Origin: Clostridiales bacterium
GTDB lineage: Bacteria > Bacillota > Clostridia > Christensenellales > Aristaeellaceae
NCBI GenBank assembly: GCA_015056395.1
Contig: SVGK01000002.1
Location: 1 to 36,880 of the forward strand
DNA: 36,880 nt
Direction of reading: 5' to 3'
In this document: positions 8,106 through 17,434 of the stretch, piece by piece
Position numbering within the stretch: position 1 is the first letter of the stretch
How the letters are laid out: each line of letters opens with the position of its first letter
Notes under the pieces: model-generated
Told to the model about the DNA's origin: nothing
Database searches by the model: none
What the model saw: only the letters and a program-made list of their open reading frames with translations
Translations under genes and position numbers: made by a program

Positions 8106-8134
8106 TTGTATTCTTCACGGAAAACGTGTATGAT
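8106..8134 (+). promoter_or_regulatory. Promoter of the SRAP gene
   Basis: TTGTAT (8106-8111), 17-base spacer, TATGAT (8129-8134). It is divergent from the kinase promoter, with the two -35 boxes 36 bases apart. Confidence 0.65.
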
Positions 8135-8170
8135 AGGAGCGGGACATATGACGTGCGGAGGTGGATGGAC

Positions 8171-8752
8171 ATGTGCGGACGCTACAGGCTGCCGGAGGAC
8201 CCGGACGAGCTGCTCGAACGCGTGCTCGAGGATCTGAACCGCGCGCCGGTCAAGGCCTCGGGCGAGGTGTTCCCATCGGACGTCGTGCCCGTGATGGCGC
8301 GAAGCCGGTCCGGAAACGCCAGGGGCTTCGCGATGCGCTGGGGCTTCGAAGCGCAGGGACGGCTGATCATAAACGCGCGCAGCGAGACGGCGGCGCAGAA
8401 GCCCCTGTTCCGCGAGAGCGCGGCGCAGAGGCGCTGCCTGGTGCCGCTTTCAGGCTACTACGAATGGCACCGCACGGGCAGCGGCGCGAAGTACTTCATC
8501 GCGCCTGGCGAGGCCGCGTGGCTGGCGGGACTCTACAGGCTCACGGACGCGGGCCCCGAGTTCACGGTGCTGACGCGCGCGCCGGGCGACGGCATCGCGT
8601 GGCTGCACGACAGGATGCCCGTGCTGCTGCCGCGCCGCGCCTGGGACGGATGGCTCGACCCGCACAGTCCCTTTTCCGAAGCGCTTGACCATGCCGTGAC
8701 GGACGTGCGGTACGAGGCGGCGGGAGACATACAGCTGGCGATGGACCTGTGA
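8171..8752 (+). CDS. SRAP-domain protein (YedK/HMCES family)
   Basis: 193 residues. It starts MCGRY, so Cys2 becomes the N-terminal nucleophile after Met removal. Other active-site parts are visible: NARSET (68-73), GYYEW with the conserved Glu (E98), and LHDRMPV with the His (H146). The family forms a covalent thiazolidine crosslink to abasic sites in single-stranded DNA and shields them. I chose this start because Cys must be residue 2 and because GGAGGTGG lies six bases upstream; earlier in-frame ATGs lack both. Confidence 0.93.
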   Translation: MCGRYRLPEDPDELLERVLEDLNRAPVKASGEVFPSDVVPVMARSRSGNARGFAMRWGFEAQGRLIINARSETAAQKPLFRESAAQRRCLVPLSGYYEWHRTGSGAKYFIAPGEAAWLAGLYRLTDAGPEFTVLTRAPGDGIAWLHDRMPVLLPRRAWDGWLDPHSPFSEALDHAVTDVRYEAAGDIQLAMDL

Positions 8753-10323: not shown

Positions 10324-10983
10324 TCAACGAACTGCCATGCCCTTGCGCACGCCCTTGAGCGGGTCGCTCTTATACACCCTCATGTATCCCACCACGACGC
10401 CCAGTATCCTTATCACGTCATGCTCGCTCAGCCTGAAGCGCATGGGCGGATAGGCGGGGTTGTCGCTGGTCAGCGTCACGCCGTCGGCTTCGTGGTACAC
10501 GTGCTTTACGGAGGCGCTGTCGTCCACCAGCACCACCGCCACCGTGCCGTTGTCCACGTCCGGCTGCTCGCGCACGAACAGCACGTCGCCGTCCAGATAC
10601 GTGGGCGCCATGCTGTCGCCGCGCACGGTCAGCGCGTAGTCGGCGCGCAGCGTGTCGTCCGCGTCGACCCACGCCTCGTAGTCCTGCTCCGCCAGTATCG
10701 GCACGCCCGCGGCGACCTCGCCAATCAGCGGTATCGCCTGCCGCTTCATCGAAGCGAGAGGCCTGAGCCCCTCGGGCCACTCGTCCTCCCAGCCCATGAG
10801 CCACGCCGGCGCGACGCGCAGCGCGCGCGAGATCGGCTGCAGCTTGTCCGCGCGCATGTGCGATATGTCCCCCGCCTCGTAGCGGTAGATCGTCGCCGGC
10901 GAAAGGCCCGTGCGCTCTGCCAGCGCCTCGACCGTCAGCCCGAGCGCCTGCCTGCGCTCCCTGATGCGTTCTCCCGGGGTCAT
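10324..10983 (-). CDS. XRE/S24 autocleaving repressor (CI/LexA-like)
   Basis: 219 residues. An N-terminal Cro/CI helix-turn-helix (LTVEALAERTGLSPATIYRY) joins a C-terminal S24 peptidase-like domain with Ala92-Gly93 as likely cleavage site (EVAAGVPIL), Ser124 in GDSMAPTYLDGD and Lys160 in SASVKHVY, the Ser/Lys dyad of LexA and phage CI. It should repress until activated RecA triggers self-cleavage. True LexA is unlikely because the DNA-binding domain is XRE-type, not winged helix. AAGGAGGT is eight bases before this ATG; the longer frame runs through the promoter. Its promoter overlaps one of four operator-like palindromes, so autoregulation is likely. Confidence 0.92.
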   Translation of the reverse strand: MTPGERIRERRQALGLTVEALAERTGLSPATIYRYEAGDISHMRADKLQPISRALRVAPAWLMGWEDEWPEGLRPLASMKRQAIPLIGEVAAGVPILAEQDYEAWVDADDTLRADYALTVRGDSMAPTYLDGDVLFVREQPDVDNGTVAVVLVDDSASVKHVYHEADGVTLTSDNPAYPPMRFRLSEHDVIRILGVVVGYMRVYKSDPLKGVRKGMAVR

Positions 10984-11015
10984 CACGGCATACCTCCTTG
11001 AATCTCTTTTCAAGC

Positions 11016-11044
11016 ATGATAGCACATTTCTCGCATAAATGCAA
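11016..11044 (-). promoter_or_regulatory. Promoter of the repressor gene
   Basis: Minus strand: TTGCAT (11039-11044), 17-base spacer, TATCAT (11016-11021). The first operator-like palindrome covers its -35 box. Confidence 0.75.
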
Positions 11045-11139
11045 GCAATTTGCACAAATATTCGCGGATACGCGATTTTCCCGTTGACAATTCGCATTTC
11101 CGCGGTTATAATGACGTCATGATTTCGCGTAAACGCGAA
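11030..11139. promoter_or_regulatory. Four operator-like palindromes in the divergent switch region
   Basis: Sites start at 11030 (CTCGCATAAATGCAAG), 11061 (TTCGCGGATACGCGAT), 11091 (TTCGCATTTCCGCGGT, weaker) and 11124 (TTCGCGTAAACGCGAA, perfect dyad). Spacings are 31, 30 and 33 bases, about three helical turns. Site 1 covers the repressor -35, site 3 fills the spacer of the rightward promoter, and site 4 lies just after its expected start. This is the layout of a phage-type control region. Confidence 0.7.
11084..11112 (+). promoter_or_regulatory. Consensus sigma-A promoter of the sigma-like gene
   Basis: TTGACA (11084-11089), 17-base spacer, TATAAT (11107-11112). Both hexamers are perfect, so expression should be strong unless repressed. 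Confidence 0.92.
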
Positions 11140-11163
11140 CAAAACCCACAGAGGAGGTGCTCC

Positions 11164-11562
11164 ATGACGAACGAGAACAGGCCCGCGCGCATGCTGTTAG
11201 GCGCATGGGCGAACGTGCCCGCGCGCACGAAGGAGCTGGAGCAGGAGCGCGCATGGGCGCTCGCGCAGCGCGACCGCGCCGAGGACGAGGAGGGCCAACA
11301 GGCGTGGACGGAGCTGGCCGCATCTGTCGAGCGCGAGCTCGCGCAGTGCGCGCGCCTCAGGCAGGCCGTCGACGAGGTGCTCGGCGCGATGGAACCAGCG
11401 TACAGGGACGTGGTGCGCCTGCGCTACGAGAAGGGCATGCACTACGCCGCCATTGCGCGCGCCACGCACTACTCCGTAGACCACGTGCGTCACATCAAAT
11501 CCAACGCGGACAGGGCTGTGGCAAGGGCGCTGCTCACAGATGCGCCAAAGTCCGATTCTTAG
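11164..11562 (+). CDS. Sigma-70 region 4-like / ArpU-type regulator
   Basis: 132 residues. The middle is a charged coiled coil (ELEQERAWALAQRDRAEDEE). Residues ~75-115 resemble sigma region 4: MEPAYRDVVRLRYEKGMHY, then AAIARATHYSVDHVRHI as the helix-turn-helix. Such short proteins are common in Firmicutes prophages and mobile elements as late-gene activators (DUF1492/ArpU-like). The start follows GAGGAGGTG with a five-base gap. Being divergent from a CI-like repressor and under a consensus promoter with operators suggests an inducible activator. No phage genes follow; the next gene is a secreted LRR protein 81 bases downstream. Confidence 0.75.
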   Translation: MTNENRPARMLLGAWANVPARTKELEQERAWALAQRDRAEDEEGQQAWTELAASVERELAQCARLRQAVDEVLGAMEPAYRDVVRLRYEKGMHYAAIARATHYSVDHVRHIKSNADRAVARALLTDAPKSDS

Positions 11563-11643
11563 CGTGAACTTAACCATCACGACACACATCACAAGGCTGT
11601 TTGTGTTAATATAAGATGAATAATTAGCGAAAGGATGGTTTCT

Positions 11644-12852
11644 ATGCGCAAAAGCCTCATGATGATCGCGCTGTTGGCCTGCGCGTTTGCCCTGATACTG
11701 GGCTGTACGGCGCTGGGAGAGGATGATCGCGTCGAACGCGCCTCCTACGTAAGGATCAACTCAACGAACTTCCCGGATGAGTACTTCAGGGATTACGTTT
11801 CGGATTACTGCGATTCGAACGGGGATGGGAAGCTCTCGTCCACCGAGATCGCGGCGGTCAAGGAGATCGACCTCATGTACGAGGGTTGTGAATCTCTCAA
11901 GGGCGTCGAGTATTTCACCGCACTTGAAGTCCTTGACGTGACGGAGAATGAGCTGACGAGCCTGGATGTCAGCAAGAACGTCAACCTGCGCGATTTGGGC
12001 TGCGCGATCAACTCGCTTGCCCGGTTGGACCTTACGAAAAATACAAAGCTGGAATCTCTCTCATGCAGTGGCAATCAGCTAACATCGCTTGATGTCAGCA
12101 ACAACACACAGTTAGAATGGCTGGAGTGTCAGTACAATTTCCTGACCAGTCTGGATGTGACGAACAACACACAGCTGACCGATCTCTGTTTTACCAGTAA
12201 TGAAATCAGTTCCATTGACTTGAGCAAGTGCATCGCATTGGAATCCCTTGAGTGTGGTGGGAACCGACTCACGCAACTTAATGTCACGAAGCTGACGAAG
12301 CTCACATGGTTAGATTGTTCCGAAAACAAACTGACCTCGCTGGATGTGAGTAAATGTACTAAACTTGAATACCTCGCATGTCCTGGGAACAACATAAAGT
12401 CGCTCAATGTGGTCACTTGCCCGAACCTGGTCAAGGCCGTAATGCACGGAAAGTATACGAACTACGGCTCCTACGGCTGCTCCTACTCGTGGACAAACAA
12501 CGACGACATATGGTATGACCTCTATTTCGACGAAGGCACCACCATAACAGCCTCCATCATGTCCACCCCCGATTTCATCATACCCGCCAAGGCCACCAGC
12601 ATACAGGCCGAGGCGTTCATGAAGGCCGGTATGACCGTGGTCGTCTGCCCGAACACGCTGAAGACGATAGGCGCAAGGGCCTTCGCGAACTGCACGGCCC
12701 TTAAACAGATCTACATCCCCGCGACCACCACCGCCATCGCCGATGACGCATTCAGCGGCTGCACGGGCCTTACGATCTACGCGCCCGCCGGAAGCGCCGC
12801 AGCGGCGTTCGCAAGCGACCATGATATCAAATTTATTTCATATGTCCGCTGA
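11644..12852 (+). CDS. Secreted EF-hand/LRR protein, paralog 1
   Basis: 402 residues. Signal peptide (MRKSLMMIALLACAFALIL...); GCTALG could be read as a weak lipobox but the paralogs use plain signal peptidase sites. Next is the domain INSTNFPDEYFRDYV with an EF-hand loop DSNGDGKLSSTE, then about 7.5 LRR units of 21 residues (LTSLDVSxNTxLxxLxCxxN, usually a Cys in each), then a BspA-type LRR_5 cap ending IYAPAGSAAAAFASDHDI. Probably exported and released or loosely wall-bound, for Ca-dependent protein or glycan contact. The second of two near ATGs is chosen for RBS spacing (AAAGGATGG) and agreement with the MRK/MRR start of the paralogs. Confidence 0.88.
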   Translation: MRKSLMMIALLACAFALILGCTALGEDDRVERASYVRINSTNFPDEYFRDYVSDYCDSNGDGKLSSTEIAAVKEIDLMYEGCESLKGVEYFTALEVLDVTENELTSLDVSKNVNLRDLGCAINSLARLDLTKNTKLESLSCSGNQLTSLDVSNNTQLEWLECQYNFLTSLDVTNNTQLTDLCFTSNEISSIDLSKCIALESLECGGNRLTQLNVTKLTKLTWLDCSENKLTSLDVSKCTKLEYLACPGNNIKSLNVVTCPNLVKAVMHGKYTNYGSYGCSYSWTNNDDIWYDLYFDEGTTITASIMSTPDFIIPAKATSIQAEAFMKAGMTVVVCPNTLKTIGARAFANCTALKQIYIPATTTAIADDAFSGCTGLTIYAPAGSAAAAFASDHDIKFISYVR

Positions 12853-12966
12853 TGTTGTCATAATAAAGTTACAATTTATTTAAATGCACAAAATACTTTC
12901 ATCGATTTAACCCCATAGTTTTTTAGTAGACTGTGTTTGGGTGAAATCATTCTGGAGGTATCGTGC

Positions 12967-14175
12967 ATGCGCAAATATCCGTTCTCGCTGATATCGGCCG
13001 CTGTCGCCTTCATGCTGCTGCTGGGCGGCAGCGCGCTGGCGTCCGTATCGATCAGTTCCTCTCACTTCCCGGACGAGACGTTCCGCGACTACATCACCGA
13101 GGAGTTCGATCTGGATTTCAGCGGTTCCCTCTCGAACGACGAAATCGAGGCCGCCACGGATATCAACATACAGGAAAGCGACATAACGTCACTGGAAGGC
13201 ATCGAATACTTCACGTCGCTTGTGGTGCTGGACTGCAGCCTGAACGACCTGGACGAGCTGGATGTCTCCAAAAACACGCTTCTTGAGGAGCTCTACTGCG
13301 ACGGCAACAGCCTGTCGAGCCTCGACGTGTCGAACTGCGCGTCCTTAAGGATACTCTCCTGCGCCGACAATGACCTCTCCGCGCTGAACGTGTCGAAATG
13401 CACGGAGCTTACCGAGCTGACCTGCGGCTTCAACAAGATCACATCGCTGAACGTCGCAAGCTGCCCCGACCTCATGACGCTCAGCTGCGAGGGCAACCGG
13501 CTCACCTCGCTGAACGTCACGGGCAACGGCGCTCTCATGTTCCTCGCCTGCGGCTACAACAGCCTCGGCAGCCTCAACGTGAAGAGCTGTCCCGACCTTG
13601 CGGAACTCTACTGCGAGAGCGCGGGGCTGACCGCGCTGGACATCACGAACAACGGGGCGCTCACGATGCTGTACTGCTTCGGCAACGCGATATCGCGCCT
13701 GGACCTGACCGAATGCCCGAACCTGCTGCGCTGCGCGACGGAGGGCGAGGTGCTCCTGAGCGAGGTCGAGTACGACGCAAGCGGCGCGGAGACGCTGTCC
13801 TCGAACGTGTACTGGCTGGACGAGGAGGACCTCTACTGCGAGATGCGCGTGCATCCCTCCACCTCGCTCATGACCACAGTGATGTCCACGCCGGACTTCA
13901 CGCTGCCCTCGGGCCTCACGGAGATCGGCGCACAGGCCTTCACGGGCGCGGACATGACCGTGGTGCTCTGCCCGAACGGGCTGAAGACCATAGGCGCAAA
14001 GGCGTTTTCGGACTGCGCGGGACTTCAGGAGATCTACATACCCGCATCCGTGGTGGCGATCGCCTCCGACGCGTTCTCCGGATGCTCCGGGCTCACGATC
14101 TATGCGCCCGCAGGCAGCGCCGCGGCAACGTTCGCGGCGAACAGGGGATTCGATTGCGTGACTTATACGAGGTGA
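12967..14175 (+). CDS. Secreted EF-hand/LRR protein, paralog 2
   Basis: 402 residues with the same plan as its neighbour: signal peptide ending GGSALA, domain SSSHFPDETFRDYI with loop DLDFSGSLSNDE, about 7.5 Cys-containing 21-residue LRRs (LSSLDVSNCASLRILSCADN), and an LRR_5 cap (MTVVLCPNGLKTIGAKAF; IYAPAGSAAATFA). Cys replaces Asn at several SNC/SKC positions. TGGAGGTA lies before MRKY; an upstream in-frame ATG lacks a site. It is GC-rich throughout, unlike the middle of paralogs 1 and 3. The 114-base gap before it shows no terminator, so read-through from paralog 1 is possible. A strong hairpin ends it. Confidence 0.88.
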   Translation: MRKYPFSLISAAVAFMLLLGGSALASVSISSSHFPDETFRDYITEEFDLDFSGSLSNDEIEAATDINIQESDITSLEGIEYFTSLVVLDCSLNDLDELDVSKNTLLEELYCDGNSLSSLDVSNCASLRILSCADNDLSALNVSKCTELTELTCGFNKITSLNVASCPDLMTLSCEGNRLTSLNVTGNGALMFLACGYNSLGSLNVKSCPDLAELYCESAGLTALDITNNGALTMLYCFGNAISRLDLTECPNLLRCATEGEVLLSEVEYDASGAETLSSNVYWLDEEDLYCEMRVHPSTSLMTTVMSTPDFTLPSGLTEIGAQAFTGADMTVVLCPNGLKTIGAKAFSDCAGLQEIYIPASVVAIASDAFSGCSGLTIYAPAGSAAATFAANRGFDCVTYTR

Positions 14176-14189
14176 CGCACAGGCGCGTC

Positions 14190-14232
14190 ATGACGGTGTG
14201 CGGCGAAGCACTTGCTTCACCGCACACCGTCA
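14190..14232 (+). terminator. Strong hairpin terminator after LRR paralog 2
   Basis: An 18-20-base stem with one mismatch (GACGGTGTGCGG... with its complement) and a 4-base loop, followed by TTTTG. Confidence 0.8.
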
Positions 14233-14335
14233 TTTTGTATACTTGTCATCTTTATTTAATATTCATGTTATCATATATCAATGTCTCCATTGTATAATTA
14301 TTGCATATTGAGTTTTTAATGGGAGGACGATCCGG

Positions 14336-15661
14336 ATGCGCAGAGGACTTTTGATGGCGCTGTTGTTTATCGCGCTGTTTACGCTTGCCATGGCGCCCGC
14401 GACGCTGGCTGAGGACGCCGTGCCGCGCGCAAGCTCGGTCACGATCAACTCGACCAACTTCCCGGACAGCATCTTCAGGCAGTACGTTAAGGCTGAGTTC
14501 GACGCAAACGGCGACGGGAAGCTGTCGTCAACGGAGATTGCTTCGGTAAAAGCGATCGAACTGGTTGAAGTCCCTGATATGAAAACCATGAAGGGAGTCG
14601 AATACTTCACTTCTCTGGAAGAGCTGTATATCGAAGAATCCAGCATCTCCAGCATCGACGTGTCCAAGCTGACAAAGCTGAAACGCCTTGGTGTCTGGGG
14701 ATGCGAACTAACAAAGCTAAACATCACAAGTCTTGTAAATCTAACGTATCTCGAGTGCAGCTGCAATTCTCTGACTTCGCTCGACATTTCAAAAAACACA
14801 AATCTTGAGTATCTGAGTTGCACATATAACAACCTGACAAAACTCGATGTATCAAAGAACATAAATCTGCAAGAACTCTGGTGTGGCGGCAACAAACTGA
14901 CCAGTCTGAACGTTTCAACACTGACAAAGCTCGACGCACTCGGCTGTTATGATAACGCCTTGACAAGCCTGGATATGACAAAGAACACATATCTGACCTG
15001 GCTGGACTTCGATATGAACAGCATCAAGACGATCGACCTGAGTATGAATGCGAACCTGACATACCTCAACTGCAGCATGAATAAACTCACAAGCCTTAAC
15101 ATCAGTAAGTGCACAAAGCTGGAAAGGCTGATAAGCTACGACAACAGCTTTACAACACTGGATATCTCCAACTGTCCCAACCTCGTAACCTGCGTACAGA
15201 AGGGAACCTACGAAGTCAACCATATAGACTGGGATAACTACTATCTGGACGAGTGGGATCCCTATGGTGAATTCAACTTCACAGCCGTCGGTTACATATA
15301 TGATTCAGACGATTATGATAACTATACTGTCTGCTATAACAGCACCGTCAAGCTCACCTATAACGCCCTCCCCGCGGCCGACTTCGTGCTGCCCGCAAAG
15401 CTGACCACGATACAGACCGAGGCCTTCCGCGGCGGCGCGATGACCATGGTGATTTGCCCGAACACGCTTAAGTCCATAGGCGCAAAGGCATTCATGAACT
15501 GCACGAAACTCAAGGGCATATACATACCCGCCTCCGTCACGTCGATCGCGCCCGACGCGTTCTCCGGCTGCTCCGGCTTCACGATCTACGCGCCCTCCGG
15601 CAGTGTGGCCGAAGTGTTCGCGGAGAACAAGGACTATGACTACGTGGCCTACACAAGATAG
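14336..15661 (+). CDS. Secreted EF-hand/LRR protein, paralog 3
   Basis: 441 residues: signal peptide ending PATLA, domain INSTNFPDSIFRQYV with EF-hand loop DANGDGKLSSTE, about 8.5 LRRs of 21 residues (LTSLDISKNTNLEYLSC), then an insert of ~45 residues rich in Tyr/Asp/Trp (DWDNYYLDEWDPYGEF) before the LRR_5 cap. The paralogs have a shorter, unrelated linker there. The LRR array and insert are clearly AT-richer than the gene ends. GGGAGGA precedes the start. A TATAAT box lies at about 14294. A separate transcript is likely because a strong terminator precedes it. Confidence 0.88.
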   Translation: MRRGLLMALLFIALFTLAMAPATLAEDAVPRASSVTINSTNFPDSIFRQYVKAEFDANGDGKLSSTEIASVKAIELVEVPDMKTMKGVEYFTSLEELYIEESSISSIDVSKLTKLKRLGVWGCELTKLNITSLVNLTYLECSCNSLTSLDISKNTNLEYLSCTYNNLTKLDVSKNINLQELWCGGNKLTSLNVSTLTKLDALGCYDNALTSLDMTKNTYLTWLDFDMNSIKTIDLSMNANLTYLNCSMNKLTSLNISKCTKLERLISYDNSFTTLDISNCPNLVTCVQKGTYEVNHIDWDNYYLDEWDPYGEFNFTAVGYIYDSDDYDNYTVCYNSTVKLTYNALPAADFVLPAKLTTIQTEAFRGGAMTMVICPNTLKSIGAKAFMNCTKLKGIYIPASVTSIAPDAFSGCSGFTIYAPSGSVAEVFAENKDYDYVAYTR

Positions 15662-15684
15662 AACATTCGAATGAGCTTTCCGCG

Positions 15685-15709
15685 CCCGGCGCATCCGCGC
15701 CGGGTGATT
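15685..15709 (+). terminator. Terminator after LRR paralog 3
   Basis: CCCGGCGC-ATCC-GCGCCGGG hairpin followed by TGATTTTTC, about 25 bases after the stop. Confidence 0.9.
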
Positions 15710-15714
15710 TTTCA

Positions 15715-15743
15715 TTTACAAAGTACGGAAGCAGGTGTATAAT
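15715..15743 (+). promoter_or_regulatory. Promoter of LRR paralog 4
   Basis: TTTACA (15715-15720), 17-base spacer, TATAAT (15738-15743). Confidence 0.75.
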
Positions 15744-15778
15744 ATGAATGCAATATTCATAACACGGAGGTATCACAT

Positions 15779-17434
15779 ATGCGTCGCTTCATATCCACAC
15801 TCTTCTTCGTACTGTCGCTCGCCGCACTCGCGCTTCCCGCCGCGCTCGCGGAAGGCGCCGTTCCCTTGGACGAGGCACACTTCCCGGACGAGACCTTCCG
15901 ACATATCGTCGCGGATAACTTTGACGCGGACGGGGACGGCGCGCTGTCCGAAGGCGAGATCGCGCAGGCGAGCGAGATCACGATCGGCGACTATCAGGAG
16001 GTCGAGAGCCTTGAGGGCGTGAAGCATCTCACCTCCTTGACCGCGCTGCACTGCCCCGGTTCCGGAACGATCACTGAAATCGACGTAAGCGGCTGCGCGG
16101 CGCTTCAGACGCTCGAATGCTACAGCTGCAGGGCGCTCAAGCGCGTGAACGCGGCCGGCTGCGCCGCGCTTGAGACGCTGGACTGTGCGGAATGCGAAAG
16201 CCTCTTGAAGCTCACGTTGACGGGCTGCGCGGCCCTGGAGCATCTCAACTGCATGGGCTGCGTCCTGACCTCGCTGAACGTGTCCGACTGCGGCGCGCTC
16301 AGGACGCTCAACTGCGGCTGGTGCGCGATCAAGTCGCTGGATGTCTCCAACTGTCCGCAGCTGAACGAGCTCAGCTGCTTCGGCAGCGCGCTGACTTCGC
16401 TTGATCTGAGCGCCTGTCCCGCGCTCACAAAGCTCAACTGCGCGATGTCCGCGCTCACCGCGCTGGACGTGAGCGGCTGCGCGGCTCTTGAGGAGCTGAC
16501 GTGCAACGAAAACGCGCTCACATCGCTCGATCTGCGCGACTGCGCGGCGCTCACCGAGCTGAACTGCTATGAAAACAGGCTGACATCCGTCGACCTGCGC
16601 GGCCTCACGCAGCTTACACATTTCGACTGCAGCCACAACCTGCTGACCGAGCTGGACGTGGAGGACTGCATGGCGCTGATCGAGTGCAACTGCGCGGGCA
16701 ATGCCCTGACCGCATTGGATGTAAGCGACCATACCCGACTCTCCTATCTTTCATGCGGCGACAACGCGCTTGCGACGCTCGACGCGGACGGCTGCACGGG
16801 CCTTCAGCTTTTCTACTGCGACCGAAACGACCTGACTGAGCTCGACCTGCGCGACTGCGCCGCGCTGACCGAGGTCTCATGCAGCTCGAACGGCCTGTCC
16901 CGCCTCCTGCTCGGCCAGTGCCCCAAGCTCGCCAGCCTGTCAAGCTACAAAAATGCCCTGACAGGCCTTGACATACGCGGATGCGCGACACTGGTCAAAG
17001 GCGTGCTCAACGGGGGTTACGTTCACGACAAGCCGCGCTCCGGCCAGCCCGACGTTCTGACGGACGAATATACCTGTTCCACACCCTCCGCATACGTGCG
17101 CATCACGATCGACGCAGCGACCACGCTGCAGGTCCTCGACCTGCCCGAGGTCGACTTCGACATGCCCGGGGACCTCGTGTCGATCGAGGAGGGCGCGTTC
17201 CGGGCCGCGGACATGACGTGCGCCGTGTGTCCCGAAGGCCTTGCGGAGATAGGCCCCATGGCGTTTGCGGACTGCGTGCGGCTCAGGGTCATATACATGC
17301 CCACCTCCGTGACATCCATCGCAGGGGACGCCTTCTCCGGGTGCGGCGACGTGGCGATATACGCGCCGGCGGGCAGCGCGGCGCAGGCTTTCGCGCTGGA
17401 GAACGGCATGAAGTATGTGCCGCACATGATGTAA
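15779..17434 (+). CDS. Secreted EF-hand/LRR protein, paralog 4 (long)
   Basis: 551 residues, the longest of the four. Signal peptide ending PAALA, domain DEAHFPDETFRHIV with loop DADGDGALSEGE, then about fifteen 21-residue LRRs, many of the form LTSLDLRDCAALTELNC with two Cys per unit, and an LRR_5 cap. The array has expanded relative to the 7-9 units of its neighbours. GC content is high throughout. CGGAGGT is placed eight bases before the ATG. It has its own promoter and is bounded by hairpins on both sides. Confidence 0.9.
   Translation: MRRFISTLFFVLSLAALALPAALAEGAVPLDEAHFPDETFRHIVADNFDADGDGALSEGEIAQASEITIGDYQEVESLEGVKHLTSLTALHCPGSGTITEIDVSGCAALQTLECYSCRALKRVNAAGCAALETLDCAECESLLKLTLTGCAALEHLNCMGCVLTSLNVSDCGALRTLNCGWCAIKSLDVSNCPQLNELSCFGSALTSLDLSACPALTKLNCAMSALTALDVSGCAALEELTCNENALTSLDLRDCAALTELNCYENRLTSVDLRGLTQLTHFDCSHNLLTELDVEDCMALIECNCAGNALTALDVSDHTRLSYLSCGDNALATLDADGCTGLQLFYCDRNDLTELDLRDCAALTEVSCSSNGLSRLLLGQCPKLASLSSYKNALTGLDIRGCATLVKGVLNGGYVHDKPRSGQPDVLTDEYTCSTPSAYVRITIDAATTLQVLDLPEVDFDMPGDLVSIEEGAFRAADMTCAVCPEGLAEIGPMAFADCVRLRVIYMPTSVTSIAGDAFSGCGDVAIYAPAGSAAQAFALENGMKYVPHMM

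Follow-up and report, generated by a model that had tools for sequence, protein, structure and literature searches.

A repressor and sigma-like activator pair without packaging genes, probably a prophage leftover, in a genome of the Clostridiales

Does a phage-like genetic switch that stands without a phage serve its host, or is it what a prophage left behind? The question is raised by contig C76 of a Clostridiales genome assembly (2.82 Mb in 346 contigs, 80% complete), which was analysed as one 36.9-kb stretch of DNA, here called the window. A repressor gene (10324-10983, minus strand) and a gene for a sigma-region-4-like protein (11164-11562, plus strand) diverge across a 180-bp spacer, the G+C content of which is 45% as compared to 68% in the genes. 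An earlier note on this DNA had described the divergent CI/S24 repressor and sigma-region-4-like genes, and both domain matches were confirmed by Pfam. We consider the pair to be, most likely, an intact but orphaned prophage immunity and late-activator module, namely the regulatory head of an element of the temperate-phage type that was stranded without packaging and structural genes.

The leftward gene encodes a CI/LexA-type repressor of 219 aa, with an N-terminal XRE helix-turn-helix (HTH_3, 2.9e-13) and a C-terminal S24 peptidase domain (Peptidase_S24, 2.8e-28). Residues A92-G93, S124 and K160 align with LexA structures as the Ala-Gly site and the catalytic serine and lysine. Judging from these alignments, the repressor retains the site and the Ser/Lys dyad typical of DNA-damage-cleaved repressors, cleavage itself being predicted. 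Its recognition helix reads ATIYRYE. The closest repressor, 70% identical, was found in genome G002 of the same genus, where the sigma-like gene shows about 45% identity.

Four candidate operators occupy the spacer: O1 (CTCGCATAAATGCAAG, 11030-11045), O2 (TTCGCGGATACGCGAT, 11061-11076), O3 (TTCGCATTTCCGCGGT, 11091-11106) and O4 (TTCGCGTAAACGCGAA, 11124-11139), with 6/8, 6/8, 3/8 and 7/8 palindromic matches, respectively. Their centres (11037.5, 11068.5, 11098.5 and 11131.5) are 31, 30 and 33 bp apart and fall near whole helical turns (0, 2.95, 5.81 and 8.95). Four palindromes at this spacing had been claimed earlier; the four sites and their distances stand, and three are good palindromes, but O3 is a half-site because of its 3/8 matches. 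The sites do take the key promoter positions that had been assigned to them. O1 overlaps the -35 element and spacer of a putative PRM-like repressor promoter (TTGCAT-17-TATCAT; 11016-11044, minus strand) and O2 lies between both promoters. The weak half-site O3 falls in the spacer of a putative PR-like rightward promoter (TTGACA-17-TATAAT; 11084-11112, plus strand), and O4 is located just 3' of the expected transcription start. The rightward promoter, previously noted as a perfect one, indeed agrees with the consensus at 12/12 positions.

With up to three mismatches, the O4 sequence has four matches in the window, all of which are O2 or O4 on both strands; the expected number is 0.47, and none of 100 shuffles reached four. 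A degenerate motif yields four sites in the 180-bp spacer, a count equalled by 0/300 shuffles and 4/3000 Markov sequences. A matrix trained on sites from eleven other loci, mostly phages and with the window left out, placed O1 first (21.7 bits), O4 second (16.5 bits), O2 fourth and O3 tenth across the 36.9-kb window. Single sites of the strength of O2 (11 bits) arise by chance in reversed sequence, so that O2 and O3 rest on position, not on score. As a set, the four candidate operators go well beyond chance.

Relatives have sites that agree with these in type and register. Eleven relatives with an (A/T)T(I/V)YRYE helix (viral contigs L016-L019 and L021-L023, and genomes G002, G020, G028 and G113), nine of which have the identical ATIYRYE helix, carry one to four TYGC[A/G]...YGCRA sites in the same spacer. 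Two of the eleven, L069 and L074, have one site each, which is not beyond chance. Several viral contigs again show near whole-turn spacing of the sites (about 21-22, 42-43 and 61-62 bp). Eight loci in the comparison have helices that clearly differ, and their spacers hold no such sites or no more than chance would give; L077, a ninth locus with the helix ATMYRYE, shows two weak ones. Because the motif was picked after viewing these spacers, the site counts are an illustration of the link to the helix and not a test of it. The comparison nevertheless suggests that the operator type goes with the recognition helix ATIYRYE of the repressor.

The product of the rightward gene is a sigma-70-region-4-like protein of 132 aa and of the phage late-activator type (phrog_36, DUF1492/RinA-like). 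It matches Sigma70_r4_2 in Pfam at 9.6e-7 and phrog_36, a family of phage transcriptional regulators, at 1.1e-6; relatives in a terminase context match the latter at 1e-21 and 3e-11. The DUF1492 profile matches these relatives only and does not reach the protein from the window. Single-sequence structure prediction gave confident helices at approximately residues 20-70 and low confidence for the DNA-binding part. Named phage records contain a single weak match to this protein, and no close relatives were found by a scan of the genome contigs. The position directly before a terS promoter, typical of late activators, is not seen here; an LRR gene comes next in the window.

The gene contexts of relatives were obtained from simple ORF calls and by reading translations, with profile libraries used for selected proteins, in a comparison set of one genome per species. 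The order CI, divergent sigma-like gene, TerS and TerL is present in G003 and G001, members of the same genus, and in G034 and G055, members of the same family; in G055, a small Cro-like gene stands first. Portal and/or capsid genes follow TerL in G001 and G003, and the identities of TerS and TerL in G001 are backed by profile matches. The repressors of these four genomes differ from that of the window in recognition helix and in spacer; the wiring is common, the operator code is not. Two of these clusters, in G003 (G003:C38, L076) and G001 (G001:C73, L080), comprise CI, sigma-like, TerS, TerL and capsid genes and adjoin a rarA-type gene, with no integrase in the stretches read. This rarA-adjacent cluster of two species of the genus could be vertically inherited and PBSX- or GTA-like. 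Also, L076, L080, L070 and L071 have in common a TGCTATAAT-type motif, with no clear -35, before TerS and 3' of the sigma-like gene; it is a candidate target promoter of the sigma-like activators of these relatives.

The window resembles the CI switches of temperate phages of Firmicutes, both those on IMG/VR contigs (L016-L018 and L022) and those of the prophages G001:C73, G003:C38 and G034:C5, in its S24 repressor, strong divergent promoter and several candidate operators over both promoters. With the viral contigs it shares the operator type and the recognition helix, but L016, L017, L018 and L022 have a small Cro-like gene first, and the window has none. Instead, the sigma-like gene stands first, as in the prophages of G001, G003 and G034, where the repressor likewise adjoins a sigma-like activator. 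These prophages differ in having another recognition helix and none of the operators of the window, and they run on into terminase genes, which the window does not.

In PBSX-type control, an Xre repressor and the sigma-like Xpf precede the terminase. The likeness to PBSX is that a repressor faces an operon leading via a sigma-like activator to packaging genes; the window, however, has no packaging or structural genes, its repressor carries an S24 domain, and the operon consists of the sigma-like gene alone. In staphylococcal phages, the RinA and Ltr regulators are proteins of some 130 aa whose genes lie immediately ahead of the packaging-gene promoter, and the Ltr families have no sequence similarity to RinA (PMC13123087). 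The sigma-like gene of the prophage versions occupies this same position, whereas the protein from the window, which matches phrog_36 and sigma region 4, is missing its target operon. Grounded or domesticated prophages, whose genes persist in the host although no functional phage is left, are a well-known class (PMC6379469, PMC8987985). The likeness lies in prophage genes residing in a host chromosome with no functional phage; the window differs in retaining the regulatory pair only, and any host function of it is putative.

The absence of other phage genes nearby, stated in the earlier note, was borne out: reading of the ORF list and comparison of selected proteins with family libraries recognised no terminase or structural genes in the 36.9-kb window, including 25 kb downstream of the switch. 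By the ORF list, the downstream region lacks terminase, portal, capsid and tail genes of a complete or PBSX-like prophage. A small protein encoded at 2240-2587, separate from the switch, has weak matches to the phage regulator and replication-initiation families phrog_19047 (7.7e-6) and phrog_270 (6.7e-4). Among the pairs compared, that of the window is the barest version, with an alanine racemase gene on one side and an LRR gene on the other. An empty-site comparison at the alanine racemase gene showed that it has different neighbours in G002 and G003.

Pairs without a terminase nearby also occur in G009, G087 and G002; in G020, G042 and G170, the contig ends soon after the pair, so that the terminase context lies outside view. 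In G002, a small gene and a phage gene for replication initiation (phrog_1408, 4e-19) lie between the two regulators. The replication gene would suit a satellite or integrative element, small and autonomous, with its remaining genes either acting in trans or absent from the assembly. For the window, this is hardly probable at all: the locus has no integrase, no replication gene and no convincing attachment-site repeats flanking the module, and only 3 bp separate the ends of the repressor and alanine racemase genes.

The most likely origin is a prophage leftover in a good state of preservation, not a regulator of a new kind, because in near relatives this switch heads genuine clusters of phage genes. 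Against it speaks the undamaged state of both genes and the operators, which is atypical of old debris. This intactness and the perfect promoter favour, in turn, a domesticated DNA-damage switch, in which the host keeps the pair to turn on its own genes, either the adjoining LRR genes or targets of the sigma-like protein elsewhere. So do the solo pairs of the three other genomes and, in simple pairwise estimates against G002, the smaller number of replacement than silent changes in the repressor (dN 0.235, dS 0.73, dN/dS ~0.3). This past constraint may, however, have acted while the repressor was in phages, and the sigma-like gene appears weakly constrained (dN 0.564, dS 0.84, dN/dS ~0.7). The context is not conserved either: the module in G002 is bordered on both sides by ABC-transporter genes and has no LRR genes.

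A regulon of operator sites was not found in the 80%-complete assembly, which counts against both domestication and the proposed control of genes elsewhere. Across the 2.82 Mb, the operator core TYGCRTNNAYGCRA has four matches, compared with none for the reversed control, and two of these are O1 and O4 of the switch itself. The other two were rejected as targets: one lies inside a coding frame on C341, the other on C211, past the end of a phage head gene in a stretch rich in hairpins. A looser operator motif was not enriched genome-wide (219 versus 283 in the reversed control). The stretch on C211 (G000:C211:270-370) consists of successive hairpins, among them TTTTGCGTTTACGCAAAA and a palindrome with ATTCCGCATTGCC at its end, and may be a small repeat element.

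The idea that the LRR genes are controlled by the switch fared unevenly. The switch is immediately followed by four consecutive LRR genes of the same strand with signal-peptide-like starts (11635-17434), and none of them is preceded by an operator. The first, LRR1, starts about 80 bp past the sigma-like gene, and since no terminator is predicted between it and the switch promoter, read-through into this gene is possible. LRR1 also has, by eye, a plausible promoter of its own (ATCACA-17-TATAAG, upstream of 11635). On the other side of the switch, 1.6 kb from the repressor end and beyond the alanine racemase gene, lies a gene for an SRAP (SOS-response-associated peptidase; 8126-8752), where no operator was found. 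Overall, domestication is unlikely for this locus, and a remnant is judged several times as likely. The switch had rightly been described as one without a phage; that it is domesticated and controls LRR or other genes is unproven.

Other phage remnants exist in the same genome. A terminase search gave matches on two contigs only, C28 and C211, and no complete prophage with the same operators, which the earlier note had named as evidence against its reading, was found in the 346 contigs of the 80%-complete assembly. C28 (L117, G000:C28:3139-8500) carries a TerS-TerL cluster beside a host gene; this contig lacks both a CI and a sigma-like gene. The short contig C211 (L116) holds part of another cluster, namely a TerL fragment, a portal-like gene and a head gene. 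The module on C76 has the only sigma-like gene and close CI gene found in this genome, and it could in principle be one part of a split phage element that still controls both head-gene clusters in trans. Control of the C28 cluster is unsupported because the motif that precedes TerS in relatives (TGCTATAAT..TAG.GT) is absent from the genome, including the promoter region before TerS on C28; the missing motif also argues against domestication. Both clusters are on short contigs, that on C28 is partial, interrupted and decayed-looking, and they may be independent remnants. A trans-acting element is therefore very unlikely.

For the orphaned prophage module, the order of sites suggests how the switch would work. 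Repressor dimers on O3 and O4, in the PR spacer and start region, aided by O2 and in phase with O1, would shut PR, while a dimer bound at O1 would cover the -35 element of the repressor promoter and limit repressor synthesis. Upon DNA damage, RecA-stimulated self-cleavage at A92-G93 would release PR, and the sigma-like protein would be made. In the parent phages, this protein would then turn on the promoter before TerS. That target is gone at the window locus, and the module probably has no role at present; at most, it would confer immunity to phages with similar operators and allow read-through into LRR1.

Several genomes have such solo modules, which might be retained for a use. It seems rather unlikely that the family repeatedly keeps the bare CI and sigma-like pair as a host-owned, DNA-damage-triggered switch, with the sigma-like protein now acting on promoters of the host or, in trans, on head-gene clusters left behind. 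The module offers a clean candidate operator code of the TYGCRWNNWYGCRA type, linked to the ATIYRYE helix, for a little-studied group of Firmicutes phages. It also displays a compact wiring from CI to a putative late activator with no early genes between, and its orphan copies are a simple place to ask whether hosts keep phage switches.
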